In this document: one piece after another, positions 23,776 through 28,205 of the stretch
Numbering within the stretch: position 1 is the first letter of the stretch
Layout of the letters: each line of letters opens with the position of its first letter
DNA from: a virus
Length of the DNA stretch: 35,748 nucleotides
Direction: 5' to 3' (one strand)
IMG/VR virus record: IMGVR_UViG_3300037963_000974
Location: 1 to 35,748 of that record
Program-made: the position numbers and the translations under genes
Notes under the pieces: generated by a model
The model's database searches: none
What the model saw: the letters and a program-made list of their open reading frames with translations, nothing else
Told to the model about the DNA's origin: nothing

Positions 23776-23827
23776 AAATAAAATTTTTATACATTTTTAA
23801 TTTTTTTAATTAATATATTTAAATGAT

Positions 23828-24097
23828 ATGGATGATGCACTAACTATAGAGAATGTAATACAATTTATAGTATTAGTTAGTGGGTTGTTTGCTGGTTTTA
23901 TTAGATTTAATAATAAGACCGAAAAGAATGGATTGATGATAACGCAACTGGAGAAGGATATAAAATCTGTTAAAACTGAGAATAAAGAGAATTACAGCAG
24001 ATTAGAAGAGAAGATAAGCGATGTAGAGGATGATTTAAAGCGTATTGCTTCAGATATTGGAGAAATAAAAGGCTTTATAAAGCAATTAAGCAAATAA
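23828..24097 (+). CDS. Holin-like membrane protein with coiled coil
   Basis: 89 residues. One N-terminal membrane helix (VIQFIVLVSGLFAGFIRF, about 10-27) is followed by a coiled coil (ITQLEKDIKSVKTENK to GFIKQLSK). This resembles XhlA-type lysis proteins. It is the first gene of the lysis group. Holin function is inferred from topology and context. Confidence 0.65.
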   Translation: MDDALTIENVIQFIVLVSGLFAGFIRFNNKTEKNGLMITQLEKDIKSVKTENKENYSRLEEKISDVEDDLKRIASDIGEIKGFIKQLSK

Positions 24098-24106
24098 CTC
24101 ATTACA

Positions 24107-24544
24107 ATGAAGCTTACAATAATTAGAGATACTTATACAAGTAAAAGCACTATAGGTAGGCTTTTTATAGATGGTGTAGAGTTTTGTTATACACTTGAGG
24201 ATATTGTAAGGGGAGAGGGTATAAAAGTCTATGGAGAAACTGCTATACCTAGTGGAGAGTACAGCATGACAATGAGCTACTCTAATAGATTTAAAGAACT
24301 TATGCCATTACTTTATAACAAACCAGATTTAAGCGTAAGAGATAGCAATGGAATATCGTTTAGTGGTATTAGAATCCATTCAGGAAATAAAGCGGAGCAT
24401 TCGCATGGATGTATTTTATTAGGATCATCAAAAAGCGTAGATTTTATTGGTAACAGTAGAAAGACTTATAAAGAGTTTATTAAGGTCTTAGGAGATTTTG
24501 ATATATTAAAGATTAATATAGTTAATAAAATTCAGTTAAAATGA
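24107..24544 (+). CDS. DUF5675-like lysis protein
   Basis: 145 residues. Conserved features in order: GRLFIDGVEFCYTLED, GETAIPSGEYSM, SNRFKELMPLL, and SGIRIHSGNKAEHSHGCILLG with His91, His100 and Cys102. This His-x-Gly-Asn...His-Gly-Cys arrangement marks the DUF5675 family, found in phage lysis regions and thought to act on peptidoglycan; the Cys/His pair recalls L,D-transpeptidase-like sites. Enzymatic action is inferred. It overlaps the next gene by 4 bp. Confidence 0.75.
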   Translation: MKLTIIRDTYTSKSTIGRLFIDGVEFCYTLEDIVRGEGIKVYGETAIPSGEYSMTMSYSNRFKELMPLLYNKPDLSVRDSNGISFSGIRIHSGNKAEHSHGCILLGSSKSVDFIGNSRKTYKEFIKVLGDFDILKINIVNKIQLK

Positions 24545-24744
24545 AAAAAGCAATTAGTGCAGTAGGTAAATGGTTTATGACTGCTAAGAGTGGAGCTGTG
24601 GTAGATGGTATTGAGGCTGTTGGTAAAAACAAGTTAAATAAAAAGAAAGTAGGAATAGTAATTACAGTTATATTGGCTATATTGCTTCTTTGTGGAGCTA
24701 TTTCTGAGGAAACATTTATAGGATTATTTGATAAAATTAATTAA
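24541..24744 (+). CDS. Small membrane protein of the lysis group
   Basis: 67 residues with a basic N-terminal half (KKAISAVGKWF to NKLNKKK) and one strong membrane helix (VGIVITVILAILLLCGAI). Coupled to the DUF5675 gene through an ATGA overlap, it is a good holin or spanin-like candidate. No lipoprotein signal. Confidence 0.6.
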   Translation: MKKAISAVGKWFMTAKSGAVVDGIEAVGKNKLNKKKVGIVITVILAILLLCGAISEETFIGLFDKIN

Positions 24745-24751
24745 AAGTTTT

Positions 24752-24772
24752 TAGCTCTCTCGAGCTATTTTT
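24752..24772 (+). terminator. Rho-independent terminator 1 after lysis genes
   Basis: TAGCTC (24752-24757), loop TCTC, GAGCTA (24762-24767), then five T. Confidence 0.7.
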
Positions 24773-24796
24773 CTTGTTTTTTGTTTGTTTGTTTTG

Positions 24797-24823
24797 GGGA
24801 GGGGTTGTTACCTCCCTTTTTTT
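24797..24823 (+). terminator. Rho-independent terminator 2 after lysis genes
   Basis: GGGAGG (24797-24802) pairs with CCTCCC (24811-24816), followed by seven T. Two terminators in tandem separate the late block from the early block. Confidence 0.75.
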
Positions 24824-24849
24824 ATGTCTAAAAATATTTTTTTTAAAAC

Positions 24850-24881
24850 TTGCTATTTGTATTAAAAAAGTATTATATTTG
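24850..24881 (+). promoter_or_regulatory. Early promoter
   Basis: -7 box TATATTTG at 24874-24881. TTG lies at 24850-24852 (21-bp spacer) and also TTTG at 24856-24859 (14-bp spacer), the latter in the repeated TTTGTATTAAAAA context. A leader of AAACAAACAAAACAAA precedes the ATG at 24911. Confidence 0.75.
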
Positions 24882-24910
24882 TAATATACAAACAAACAAA
24901 ACAAATAGAC

Positions 24911-25174
24911 ATGAAAACAATTAAAGAAACATTAGCAGAAATCCAAACAGCAAATAATACTATTTTCTCAGTTGAGTTTATTAAGAAAGATGGTACAGTA
25001 AGAACTATGGTAGCTAGATTACATGTTAAAAAAGGTGTTAAGGGTACTGGAATGGCTTACAATCCAATAGAAAAAGGTTTACTTCCTGTATGGGATATGC
25101 AAAAAAACGGATTTAGAATGATCAACTTAAAAACAGTAACTAAATTACAAATTAAAGGAGAGGAGCTTATTTAA
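24911..25174 (+). CDS. Small SH3-like early protein
   Basis: 87 residues: FSVEFIKKDGTVRTMVARLH, VKKGVKGTGMAYNPIEKG, and LLPVWDMQKNGFRMINLKTV. This all-beta KDG-R-M-AR...DMQ-GFRMIN layout recurs in small phage proteins of unknown function. As the first gene behind a strong promoter it is likely made early in infection and may act on host processes; this is inference. A terminator overlaps its stop codon. Confidence 0.7.
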   Translation: MKTIKETLAEIQTANNTIFSVEFIKKDGTVRTMVARLHVKKGVKGTGMAYNPIEKGLLPVWDMQKNGFRMINLKTVTKLQIKGEELI

Positions 25175-25186
25175 GCTCTTCTTTTT
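25160..25186 (+). terminator. Terminator overlapping the stop codon
   Basis: GAGGAGCTT (25160-25168) pairs with AAGCTCTTC (25173-25181), nine pairs including one G-T, followed by five T. It should limit transcription into the next gene. Confidence 0.75.
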
Positions 25187-25201
25187 ATAAACCAGATAAC
25201 C

Positions 25202-25432
25202 ATGTATATTAAAATAAAAAACAAAAGAATCAATTTTAATAATGTAGTTTGTTATAAGCCAATGAGTAAACTTATATACGGTAAAACTAACCATTATGAG
25301 CATTATTTAAGCTTAGATACATTAGGAGATGATGTAAACTATGAAAAGCAGTCTATTGAGTTTGATACTTTAATAGAGGTTAATGCAATTATTAAGGAAT
25401 TAGATGAACTTTTAGAGGTAAAAAGTATATGA
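25202..25432 (+). CDS. Small protein, function unknown
   Basis: 76 residues: a beta start (YIKIKNKRINFNNVVCY), a middle with HYEHYLSLDTLGDD and a helical end (LIEVNAIIKELDELLEVKSI). No motif recognised. Its stop overlaps the next start (ATGA at 25429). Expression depends on read-through of the terminator just upstream or on an unseen promoter. Confidence 0.65.
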   Translation: MYIKIKNKRINFNNVVCYKPMSKLIYGKTNHYEHYLSLDTLGDDVNYEKQSIEFDTLIEVNAIIKELDELLEVKSI

Positions 25433-25557
25433 AAGATCCAGCTTATAGATTATGCACAACTAGACAAAGAATAATAAGAGTAAATTCTTTGCCATTATGT
25501 AGTGATAAAGATTGCCCAGCATGTACTCAATTTAGTATTAGCTTAATTAGGTTATAA
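25429..25557 (+). CDS. 42-residue cysteine-rich mini protein
   Basis: The ATG at 25429 overlaps the previous stop. The product MKDPAYRLCTTRQRIIRVNS continues with C-x4-C-x2-C (LCSDKDCPAC), suggesting a small metal-binding knuckle together with Cys9. The stop TAA is the first part of TAAC, the left edge of a large palindrome (25555-25605). Confidence 0.5.
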   Translation: MKDPAYRLCTTRQRIIRVNSLPLCSDKDCPACTQFSISLIRL

Positions 25558-25605
25558 CGTTGAATACATGAGCCTGTGCGAAGCATGGCTTTATGTATAG
25601 TGTTA
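25555..25605. repeat. attC-like palindrome S1
   Basis: TAAC (25555-25558) and GTTA (25602-25605) bound a long hairpin: ATACAT (25564-25569) with ATGTAT (25593-25598), then GAGCC with GGCTT, and an inner TGC-GAA-GCA tip. The left edge overlaps a stop codon. The right edge GTTAGCTA (25602-25609) is an exact inverted copy of TAGCTAAC at 25880-25887. Confidence 0.6.
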
Positions 25606-25646
25606 GCTATCTGTATTTATTTTTAACCTAAAAAACAAAAAACAAA

Positions 25647-25886
25647 ATGAGAATTATAAAAACAACTTTAGAAAATATACTTTCTTTAATTGCTTGCGCA
25701 AGTGACTACGGATTTGAAGATGATGTTTTATTTGATGCTTTTAGAGAGATGTTAGATGGAAAACTAACCAACGAGGAAATAGAAACCTACGCAAGAAGTG
25801 TAGAGTTTATGGAGGGATATAGACAAGAAGATTACGAGGCAATTAAAGAACGATTAAAGGACTTTAAAAATAAATATTGTAGCTAA
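25647..25886 (+). CDS. Cassette-borne small protein, unknown
   Basis: 79 residues, acidic and helical: FEDDVLFDAFREMLDGKLTN, YARSVEFMEGYRQEDYEAIK. No family recognised. The gene lies exactly between two palindromes (S1 and S2), has its own A-rich leader, and its stop overlaps the TAAC of S2. The flanking GTTAGCTA/TAGCTAAC pair matches the relation between core and inverse core sites in integron cassettes, so I read this as a single-gene cassette. Confidence 0.7.
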   Translation: MRIIKTTLENILSLIACASDYGFEDDVLFDAFREMLDGKLTNEEIETYARSVEFMEGYRQEDYEAIKERLKDFKNKYCS

Positions 25887-25956
25887 CGACCTTATAAATT
25901 AGCTTGAGCGACTGTTTGTAATTCTCAAATTGCAAATTGAATTTATAATAATGTTA
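25884..25956. repeat. attC-like palindrome S2
   Basis: TAAC (25884-25887), GACC, then TTATAAATT (25892-25900) pairing with AATTTATAA (25940-25948), ending GTTA (25953-25956). Just inside the left stem is AGCTTGAGCGACTG (25901-25914), identical to 35173-35186 in S4. Confidence 0.65.
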
Positions 25957-25978
25957 AAATAATATTATTTTTATAGTA

Positions 25979-26006
25979 TTGTATTAAAATATTATTATTA
26001 TATTTG
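25979..26006 (+). promoter_or_regulatory. Early promoter
   Basis: TTG (25979-25981), 17-bp spacer, TATATTTG (25999-26006), in the repeated TTGTATTAAAA context. A/C-rich leader precedes ATG 26036. Confidence 0.75.
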
Positions 26007-26035
26007 TAATATACAAACACAAAAAACAAAACAAA

Positions 26036-26278
26036 ATGAGAACAACAGAAGAAGTAACAGTATTATTAGGAGAAACATCAGAAAGAAGTTTTACAGTTAA
26101 AGTAACTTGTGATTATGATCATGGAGATTATTATAACCCACCATCAGCTGATTATTATTTAGACAGCGAGATCCAGGAGAACGGTTTAGAGTGTAATGAG
26201 TTAATTGAGAGATACGAAAGTATTTTTAAAGTTGATTTTGAAGCTTTAGCAATAGAAGAATTTAAGGATTTATATTAA
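26036..26278 (+). CDS. Small acidic protein, unknown
   Basis: 80 residues, strongly acidic, with VTCDYDHGDYYNPPSADYYL and an acidic helix at the end (ERYESIFKVDFEALAIEEF). The N-terminal half is beta-like. It is first behind its promoter and probably begins the recombination/replication operon. Acidic early proteins can mimic DNA or bind host factors, but nothing here proves that. Confidence 0.7.
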   Translation: MRTTEEVTVLLGETSERSFTVKVTCDYDHGDYYNPPSADYYLDSEIQENGLECNELIERYESIFKVDFEALAIEEFKDLY

Positions 26279-26288
26279 ACCAATAATT

Positions 26289-26528
26289 ATGAATGAGGAT
26301 GATTTAGGGAGTTTTCTACATGAGAACTCCCAAAACTCTAATAAAGAGTTAGCAGATGAGATAAGAGCTATTAAGAAGCTTAGTAATAAGCATGATAATG
26401 TAGTTATCCATCAAGAGAAGAGAAGCATAAACAAAGCATCAGAAAAGCTAAGTAAAATTATTAAGGCTTTTGATAAGGATGCAAAATTATTAATAAACTT
26501 AAAAGATAAAACATGGCATCAGGATTAG
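26289..26528 (+). CDS. Small helical protein, unknown
   Basis: 79 residues, charged and helical (NKELADEIRAIKKLSNKHDN, KASEKLSKIIKAFDKDAK). It overlaps the annealing-protein gene by 16 bp, so it is likely translated with it. No recognised motif. Confidence 0.65.
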   Translation: MNEDDLGSFLHENSQNSNKELADEIRAIKKLSNKHDNVVIHQEKRSINKASEKLSKIIKAFDKDAKLLINLKDKTWHQD

Positions 26529-26932
26529 AAAGAGCTTTAAAAACAGTAGATATAAAAGGTAAGGCTTACGTAACAGTAAATGAACGTGTAAAGTACTTTA
26601 GAGAGCATTTTACGAATTATAAGCTAATAAGTGAGATAGTATATCAAAATGATGCTAAGTATCTTACATGGCAAGAGAACGGAGAAACAAAAGGAGCTTG
26701 GAAAAGTGCTGAGATTTGTTTTAAAGCAAGTATCTTAAATGAGCAGAATGATGTAGTCGCTACTGGTTATGCAATGGAGAAAGCAGATAGTTCATACATA
26801 AATAAAACTAGTTATGTAGAAAACTGTGAAACTTCTGCATGGGGTAGAGCTTTAGCCAATTTTGCTATAGGTGTAGATGCTTCTGTAGCTAGTGCTGATG
26901 AGGTTGCTAATGCTATAAAGAATCAAAAGTAA
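26513..26932 (+). CDS. Probable single-strand annealing protein (ERF/Rad52-like)
   Basis: 139 residues. The core YVTVNERVKYFREHFTNYKL, a beta sheet ending FKASILNEQNDVVATGYAME, and SYVENCETSAWGRALANFAI followed by VASADEVANAI match the annealing-protein signature in which E-x-TSA-GRAL and the SADEV segment end the DNA-binding core. Such proteins anneal phage DNA ends during recombination. Neighbouring ssDNA-binding-like and RusA genes support this. The exact family (ERF versus a Rad52-type relative) is open. Confidence 0.7.
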   Translation: MASGLERALKTVDIKGKAYVTVNERVKYFREHFTNYKLISEIVYQNDAKYLTWQENGETKGAWKSAEICFKASILNEQNDVVATGYAMEKADSSYINKTSYVENCETSAWGRALANFAIGVDASVASADEVANAIKNQK

Positions 26933-27153
26933 TGGGATACGATAACACTACTGAGAATGCTACAGAATGGCAAATAACAATCATAGAAAACTTAATAACT
27001 ACATCTACAATACCTCAAGAGGAGAAAGAAGAGGTAGAAAGGATGCTATTTGATACTGAGTTAAAATATGATAGAGCAAATGAAATAATAGACTATCTAA
27101 AGGATAATAATGAGCCTTTAGATCCAAGAGAACAATTTAATAAACGTTTTTAA
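26932..27153 (+). CDS. Small helical partner of the annealing protein, unknown
   Basis: 73 residues: TEWQITIIENLITTSTIPQE, EKEEVERMLFDTELKYDRAN, EIIDYLKDNNEPLDPREQF. A small helical protein with this ATEWQI...YLK plan often lies next to annealing proteins and can also be fused to their C-termini. The start shares one base with the previous stop. Confidence 0.65.
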   Translation: MGYDNTTENATEWQITIIENLITTSTIPQEEKEEVERMLFDTELKYDRANEIIDYLKDNNEPLDPREQFNKRF

Positions 27154-27164
27154 TTTTAATAGAT

Positions 27165-27437
27165 ATGGATAATAATTTAGAATTTCCAGAGGGAATAATT
27201 TTTAAGCTTCCAAGAAATGAAGCTCCTGATTTTGTAAAAGGCTCATTAAGCATTAAAAGAGCTGATTTAATTAAATGGCTTAATAGTAAGTCTGATGAAT
27301 GGATTAACTTAGATTTAAAAGTTGGTAAAAGTGGAAAGGCTTATGCAGCTATTAACACATGGAAGCCTGAGAACAAAGGGCAAAGCATACCAGCTCCAGC
27401 ATTAGATAATAGTTCTAACGATGATTTACCTTTCTAA
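27165..27437 (+). CDS. ssDNA-binding-like protein with DDLPF tail
   Basis: 90 residues. A beta-rich core (LIKWLNSKSDEWINLDLKVG, GKAYAAINTW) is followed by a proline/serine linker and the acidic end SSNDDLPF. This tip resembles the C-terminal hook of bacterial SSB (DDDIPF), which recruits replication proteins. The protein is short for an OB-fold SSB, and the core call is tentative. The same tip ends the ATPase at 31366. Confidence 0.65.
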   Translation: MDNNLEFPEGIIFKLPRNEAPDFVKGSLSIKRADLIKWLNSKSDEWINLDLKVGKSGKAYAAINTWKPENKGQSIPAPALDNSSNDDLPF

Positions 27438-27868
27438 TGGATAGAAAAGAATTAGAAGAGTTAACTAAAGGAATAGAGGGTATATTAGCCCTCTATTCTG
27501 GTTTAGGTAAGGACTTTAAAGATATAGATAGATTGATAGTAGCTAAAAGAAAGTTATCAGGTTATTTGTATAGATTTAGTGTTTTAGTAGGAGATGCTTT
27601 AGAGCAGTATAATGTTAATTATGCAAATAGAAAGAGCTTAACAGCTGAAAAGATACTTAACTATGTTAGTTCTGGTGATGCTCAATTTAAAGCAACTATG
27701 AAAGCAGAAGTAGACTTAAAAGATGTTAGACTATTAGAGGCAAGTTCTGAGGCTGTTTATAGACGTATTAAGAGCCAATATGATAGTTTAAGAGATACTT
27801 TAAATAGTATTCAACAAGATATAAGTACATTAAAAATGGAGCTTAGTGATGCAAAAATACATCATTAA
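27437..27868 (+). CDS. Helical recombination-region protein, unknown
   Basis: 143 residues, helical: YLYRFSVLVGDALEQYNVNY, NYVSSGDAQFKATMKAEVDL, RRIKSQYDSLRDTLNSIQQD. Proteins with this plan sit between annealing and resolvase genes in other phages; the role is not known. Bases 27471-27498 near the start form a perfect 10-bp inverted repeat within the coding sequence. It overlaps the RusA gene by 23 bp. Confidence 0.65.
   Translation: MDRKELEELTKGIEGILALYSGLGKDFKDIDRLIVAKRKLSGYLYRFSVLVGDALEQYNVNYANRKSLTAEKILNYVSSGDAQFKATMKAEVDLKDVRLLEASSEAVYRRIKSQYDSLRDTLNSIQQDISTLKMELSDAKIHH
27471..27498 (+). repeat. Perfect 10-bp inverted repeat inside a coding region
   Basis: GAATAGAGGG (27471-27480) and CCCTCTATTC (27489-27498) with loop TATATTAG, in codons 12-21 of the surrounding gene. 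The GAGGG...TTA...CCCTC core resembles the two repeated terminators but has no T-run. Confidence 0.55.
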
Positions 27869-28205
27869 AGGTAATACACCATCTAAGAGTAATTGCTATA
27901 AGGTAATTAGATTAGGTAATAGATGCTCTTTAGGTAAGCAAAAGCACCTTAAAAGCTATGAGAACAGTTTTAAGCTACAGATGTTAAATTATAAGTATAA
28001 TCTTATAGAAAGTGAGTTTAAGTTTATTATAGATGTTTATTATCCATCTAGAAGGAGTGATTTAGATAATAGTTTAAAAGTTGTCCTAGACTGTTTACAA
28101 AAAGCTCAAGTTATAAAGAATGATAATAAATGTATTGAGATAATTGCTAAGAAACATTTAGACAAAATAGATCCTAGAATAGAATTTAGTTTAATACCTA
28201 TTTAA
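27846..28205 (+). CDS. rusA: RusA-like Holliday junction resolvase
   Basis: 119 residues. The RusA signature is clear: a strand IIDVYYPSRR, then SDLDNSLKVVLDCLQ with Asp72 and Asp74, and VIKNDNKCIEI with Asp93, the acidic residues that bind metal in RusA. The start is MMQ at 27846 or the second Met at 27849. It resolves branched phage DNA before packaging. A terminator follows. Confidence 0.85.
   Translation: MMQKYIIKGNTPSKSNCYKVIRLGNRCSLGKQKHLKSYENSFKLQMLNYKYNLIESEFKFIIDVYYPSRRSDLDNSLKVVLDCLQKAQVIKNDNKCIEIIAKKHLDKIDPRIEFSLIPI

Follow-up and report, generated by a model that had tools for sequence, protein, structure and literature searches.

Work on integrons has treated them as systems by which chromosomes and plasmids capture genes, and the gene of an integron cassette is typically, albeit not absolutely, read in the same direction as its attC site. 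The attC sites of class 1 integrons and of Vibrio (attCaadA7, VCR) follow the plan R''-spacer-L''...L'-spacer-R', which the site described below shares, and are cleaved at G^TT (PMC2727003). The occurrence of attC sites in phages is already known: according to Qi et al. (2023; PMC9892861), attC clusters are present in virulent phages including Polaribacter phage P12002L, and one of these sites, P12002L_attC2, recombines with attI1 through IntI1 on the bottom strand only. Few complete integrons of Bacteroidota are reported by IntegronFinder 2.0 (PMC9024848).

The window, by which we mean the whole stretch of DNA analysed, is a linear virus record of 35,748 bases. Its gene 25647-25886 lies between two palindromes edged by TAAC and GTTA, and the two cassette edges are exact inverted copies of each other; both features had been claimed in the initial annotation and could be read directly from the coordinates (Table 1). 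In the upstream palindrome AAC (25556-25558) and GTT (25602-25604) enclose the arms ATACAT-G-AGCC (25564-25574) and GGCT-TT-ATGTAT (25587-25598), and in the downstream palindrome AAC (25885-25887) and GTT (25953-25955) enclose the arms TTATAAATT (25892-25900) and AATTTATAA (25940-25948). On the minus strand the 5' arm of the upstream palindrome, ATACAT-AA-AGCC, is one base longer than GGCT-C-ATGTAT, i.e. there is an extra-helical base on the R''-L'' arm as defined in PMC2727003. The 8-bp cassette edge is complementary to the start of the unit's own attC, and the unit reads on the minus strand CG^TTAGCTA, antisense gene, TAGCTAAC-attC-CG^TT. The minus-strand boxes GTTATAA and GTTAGCT depart from the RRRY of the GTTRRRY consensus.

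Table 1. Coordinates of the mobile unit, its ends and the adjoining resident site in the window
Feature	Position	Strand	Remark
Whole mobile unit	25558..25886	+	329 bp; reverse-polarity cassette (attC, leader and gene)
Presumed cuts of the unit, AA^CG	25557/25558 and 25886/25887	+	Based on the integron rule G^TT
Left TAACG (CGTTA on the minus strand), R'-type crossover box	25555..25559	+	
Right TAACG, second crossover box	25884..25888	+	
attC-type site carried by the unit	25550..25611	- (canonical orientation)	Spacers 3/5; R''-L'' arm one base longer
Cassette edge GTTAGCTA, R box	25602..25609	+	Exact inverted copy of 25880-25887
Cassette edge TAGCTAAC	25880..25887	+	Exact inverted copy of GTTAGCTA
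Conserved internal loop separating the two terminal inverted repeats, TCTG side	25610..25613	+	
TTG side of the internal loop	25877..25879	+	
Second inverted repeat, left arm TATTTATTTTTAA	25614..25626	+	Score 13; 0/3000 background pairs
Second inverted repeat, right arm TTAAAAATAAATA	25864..25876	+	Overlaps the 3' end of the gene
Cargo gene	25647..25886	+	79 aa; no family found
Resident palindrome, candidate recipient attC	25885..25955	-	Kept in the empty site; minus strand ends in GGTCGTTA

With the neighbouring protein (26513-26929) as query, 80 viral loci were found. L043, a relative about 93% identical to the window (92.8% over 23820-25559 and 93.7% over 25884-27979), lacks exactly the 329-bp unit, with the flanks joined at TAACG, a direct repeat present at both junctions of the filled site and at the empty site. 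The exactness of this absence and the TAACG join imply a real insertion or excision. L043 retains the downstream palindrome (L043 5373-5443) and lacks the upstream one, which means that the unit consists of the upstream palindrome and the gene, and not, as initially annotated, of the gene and its downstream attC; it also means that the upstream palindrome varies with the presence of the gene. The join lies inside minus-strand CGTTA, which contains G^TT. As the 5-bp repeat leaves the exact base ambiguous, the cut falls somewhere inside TAACG, and the integron rule would place it at AA^CG (CG^TT on the other strand).

The second filled/empty pair is provided by the Polaribacter phages: P12002S carries a methyltransferase unit after the stop of gene A, with a TAACG join, and P12002L lacks it there. 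In L011, L014 and L015 different units are found between the stop of a conserved gene and a palindrome AACATC...GTTA, those of L014 and L015 having 10-bp inverted edges, and the same site is empty in L009, L012 and L018. The L011 cassette protein has no match in any other virus; L088, the sole relative of the L014 cassette protein, was rejected, since it is part of an operon and has no palindromes beside it. Related phages often have gene-sized insertions at gene boundaries with no palindrome at all, thus an insertion as such does not call for an integrase.

Whether the palindromes are attC sites was judged by comparison, since their folding is unremarkable (weakly better than shuffles, with z values of -1.3 to -2.3 for the upstream and -0.75 to -1.7 for the downstream palindrome) and an Rfam search of the window gave no match. 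Two covariance models were built, because MAFFT, run on phage and chromosomal sites together, did not align the stems: R1 from integrase-adjacent chromosomal attC sites, which are richer in G+C than the phage sites, and R2 from four sites of P12002L/S only, among which attC2 may or may not be included. The top R2 match in the window is 25550-25611 on the minus strand (30.9 bits, E 1.4e-5; the runner-up scores 14.5 bits). R2 also matches sites in L015 and L010, and gives a single match at E <0.01 in 541 kb of other phage loci. The upstream site was not among the R1 matches in the window; owing to the G+C-richer training sites of R1, the miss reflects limited sensitivity as much as a negative outcome. 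The resident downstream palindrome is not significant with R1 (11.1 bits, E 0.88) and is unmatched by R2. The window therefore contains one significant attC site, where a CALIN is defined by at least two attC without intI, and of the two attC-like palindromes initially annotated the upstream one is supported as a scoring attC and the downstream one is not. The R2 E value, the empty site of L043 and the second, 13-bp inverted repeat together put the upstream site well above chance. A naive ab initio palindrome finder was discarded as unspecific in the AT-rich window (17 hits, 11 in a shuffle), and inverted 8-bp edges, counted in phages, were near chance (105 vs 63 expected) and were for this reason not used alone as evidence. 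BLAST searches of one P12002L site against 99 Bacteroidota genomes and of attC plus leader against the phage collection gave no match and no convincing match, respectively.

The ends of the window unit are bipartite, with the 8-bp R box, the TCTG/TTG loop and, at a nearly fixed offset, the second 13-bp inverted repeat, a score that no random pair reached (0/3000). The second repeats of phage cassettes score 18, 13, 12 and 9, with a maximum of 7 in 61 IntI-type chromosomal cassettes, in which no extended bipartite ends were seen. Arms are more complementary to their own than to swapped partners (permutation p 0.0003 and 0.0002, with related cassettes treated as independent). A leader-based search found matching ends in further viruses, the leader pattern having 25 viral hits of which about half are clearly without an attC link. 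Matching ends are also present in one bacterial chromosome (G199), where both ends of a cassette resemble those of a P12002L cassette, with 87 nt at 90% identity on one side, and the attC arms are similar to the ATGAGCCTGT/ATGGCTTAT of the window site. The presence of such cassettes in several viruses and in a bacterial chromosome agrees with the earlier suggestion that they occur in phages and bacterial replicons alike. In L168 (7286-10067) the chromosomal cassette with phage-type ends adjoins a cytosine-methyltransferase-like gene, possibly of a restriction-modification locus, and in four different viruses (L188, L190, L187 and L200) near-identical attC and leader sequences precede different genes.

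Because the unit consists of the upstream palindrome and the gene, with a minus-strand join that the integron rule places at CG^TT, the gene is read against its attC: the gene lies on the plus and attC on the minus strand. The integron-cassette idea of the initial annotation is sustained in substance by the attC match and the empty site, and fails in polarity. Genes flanking attC are antisense in 51/55 cases in related phages vs 18/197 in Bacteroidota chromosomes. With a common procedure, in which the canonical orientation is that of attC sites pointing away from a divergent integrase gene (checked on L126), sense/antisense counts are 161/16 for chromosomal sites found by R1, 18/2 for chromosomal sites found by R2 and 1/28 for phage sites. 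The fact that R2 calls the chromosomal genes sense shows that the strand of the model is not the cause of the phage polarity. Phage sites found later and chosen without the leader motif are flanked by 23 antisense and 3 sense genes, the latter being ORFs of <66 aa. Counted by locus, with labels that we assigned from the table of flanking genes, 9/9 phages vs 3/26 chromosomal loci are antisense (Fisher p 3e-6, the loci being not fully independent). One integrase-adjacent chromosomal array (L121, 5932-8952) is unlike the others in that most of its cassette genes are antisense to attC.

A site-specific recombinase presumably moves these genes, as initially annotated. PF00589 (tyrosine recombinase) gave no match in the window, in L043, in P12002L/S or in a further seven viral records, any of which may be fragments, and the window record, possibly itself a fragment, accordingly showed no complete integron (intI plus attI); eleven other viral records, again possibly fragments, gave one match (in G432). 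Integron integrases are common in Bacteroidota: TIGR02249 scored over its curated cut-off in 105/395 Bacteroidota genomes and 0/14 controls. In the same search of Bacteroidota genomes G199 had no IntI match. About a quarter of the sampled Bacteroidota genomes thus have an integron integrase vs the few complete integrons reported (PMC9024848), which may point to a blind spot of the tool. R2 sites were found in at least 8 of the 395 genomes, under strict filters that left few candidates. P12002-type attC sites form a long cluster in L169 (G135:C1:2599000-2618000), and no integron integrase is listed for G135. An integron integrase of the host acting in trans would be the simplest, and a plausible, source of the enzyme.

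The 79-aa protein of the window belongs to no Pfam or PHROG family and no viral relative of it was found. Its sole match in a genome contig (L089, 44% over 34 aa) was rejected, as it lies inside an unrelated 576-aa gene, and its single-sequence AlphaFold model, although helical, is of low quality (pLDDT 56) and not good enough for a fold search. Cassettes with bipartite ends in other viruses and in the one bacterial chromosome lie mostly around DNA-methyltransferase and Mom genes, including D12 methyltransferases, N6/N4 methyltransferases and two Mom proteins. Since the related cassettes mostly carry DNA-modification genes, the benefit of such cassettes would likely be protection against host restriction, and by analogy with this cargo the window gene may have a counter-restriction role.

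We propose that the unit 25558-25886 is probably an integron-type cassette whose gene is opposite to attC, moved most likely by a host-supplied integron integrase. The L043 and P12002S/L pairs, the R2 match, the polarity counts and the use of attC2 by IntI1 (PMC9892861) speak for this reading; the lack of a phage recombinase in the records searched, the missing IntI match in G199, the R1 miss, the palindrome-free insertions and the absence of bipartite ends from the chromosomal cassettes speak against it. The infected, presumably Bacteroidota, host would supply the integrase, and the folded single-stranded attC of a circular cassette would recombine at a CG^TT box with the attC-like site resident in the phage, by which the window phage would have gained the unit or, in the opposite direction, L043 would have lost it. 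The layout would be that of a Bacteroidota integron cassette except for the direction of the gene. The resident site is oriented opposite to phage transcription, so that co-transcription would be restricted to cassettes with a reversed gene.

As extended ends were not seen in the 61 chromosomal cassettes, those of phages may differ from the ordinary integron cassette. The bipartite ends could be the site of a non-IntI recombinase, supplied by a co-infecting phage, a satellite or a host element, with attC being just a part of the recognition site. Such a phage-specialised system would account for the conservation of the ends around non-homologous genes, in several viruses as well as one chromosome, for the covariation of their arms and for a gene polarity opposite to that of chromosomal arrays; we nevertheless consider it unlikely, both as a system and in the role that it gives to attC, as no such recombinase was found in the records searched, the attC part alone matches the class used by IntI1 (PMC9892861), the L014 and L015 units have R-box edges without a second repeat, and the permutation test on the arms treats related cassettes as independent. 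The exactness of the join at the 5-bp TAACG boxes, as a CG^TT exchange predicts, makes it improbable that recombination between short repeats (TAACG, attC arms, leaders), be it homologous or illegitimate, moved the gene, with the palindromes as passive remnants of an older cassette. The two palindromes of the window differ in sequence, hence arm homology cannot explain the window/L043 pair. In favour of this rival, these phages often have ordinary insertions at gene boundaries, L090 and L091 differ by a deletion within repeated attC half-arms, and L188 and L190 have attC and leader in common with different genes. The palindromes are intergenic hairpins, as transcription terminators at fixed positions would be; L043, however, lacks the upstream one as well as the gene, the stem of this palindrome is not followed directly by a T run and its score comes from attC features, which makes this explanation very improbable indeed.

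With the cassette reading preferred, the window unit, its absence from L043 and the DNA-modification cargo of related cassettes suggest that these phages, among them the marine-type phage of the window, swap possible counter-defence genes as movable cassettes. Tentatively, Bacteroidota phages might possess a distinct, phage-adapted class of cassettes (reversed gene, bipartite TCTG/TTG ends, DNA-modification cargo) that forms a traded counter-restriction pool, with a recombinase acting in trans and a site requirement possibly unlike that of ordinary integron cassettes. The precise filled/empty pair, and the recurrence of such ends in many viruses and in one chromosome, would mean that phage genomes serve as working recipients of cassettes and are not passive carriers; reversed polarity and bipartite ends are testable marks separating phage-adapted from chromosomal cassettes, and the cargo would link integron-type recombination to the contest between phages and bacteria over restriction.

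Compared with attCaadA7 and VCR, the window site differs in sequence, in its shorter AT-rich stem and in the direction of the gene. The chromosomal integrons of Bacteroidota (TIGR02249-adjacent arrays, such as L125, L126, L132 and L134) share with it the CGTT...AACA edges, with inverted repeats of 9-14 bp in the arrays, spacers that are short on the 5' side (2-3 nt in the arrays) and longer on the 3' side (6-7 nt), and the R''-L'' extra base, and differ in that their genes are mostly sense to attC, their sites are G+C-richer and a second inverted repeat is lacking. The cassettes and CALINs of virulent phages, notably P12002L, resemble it in attC type, in the lack of a phage integrase and in the methyltransferase cargo of relatives, while the window gene itself is small and unrelated. 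In the accessible part of PMC9892861 the 'divergent directions' of P12002L are read as possible mosaicism, whereas in the relatives of the window the polarity is consistently reversed. Relative to that part of the work of Qi et al., which is without all three, consistent reversed polarity, bipartite ends and a filled/empty pair are the new features of the present analysis.
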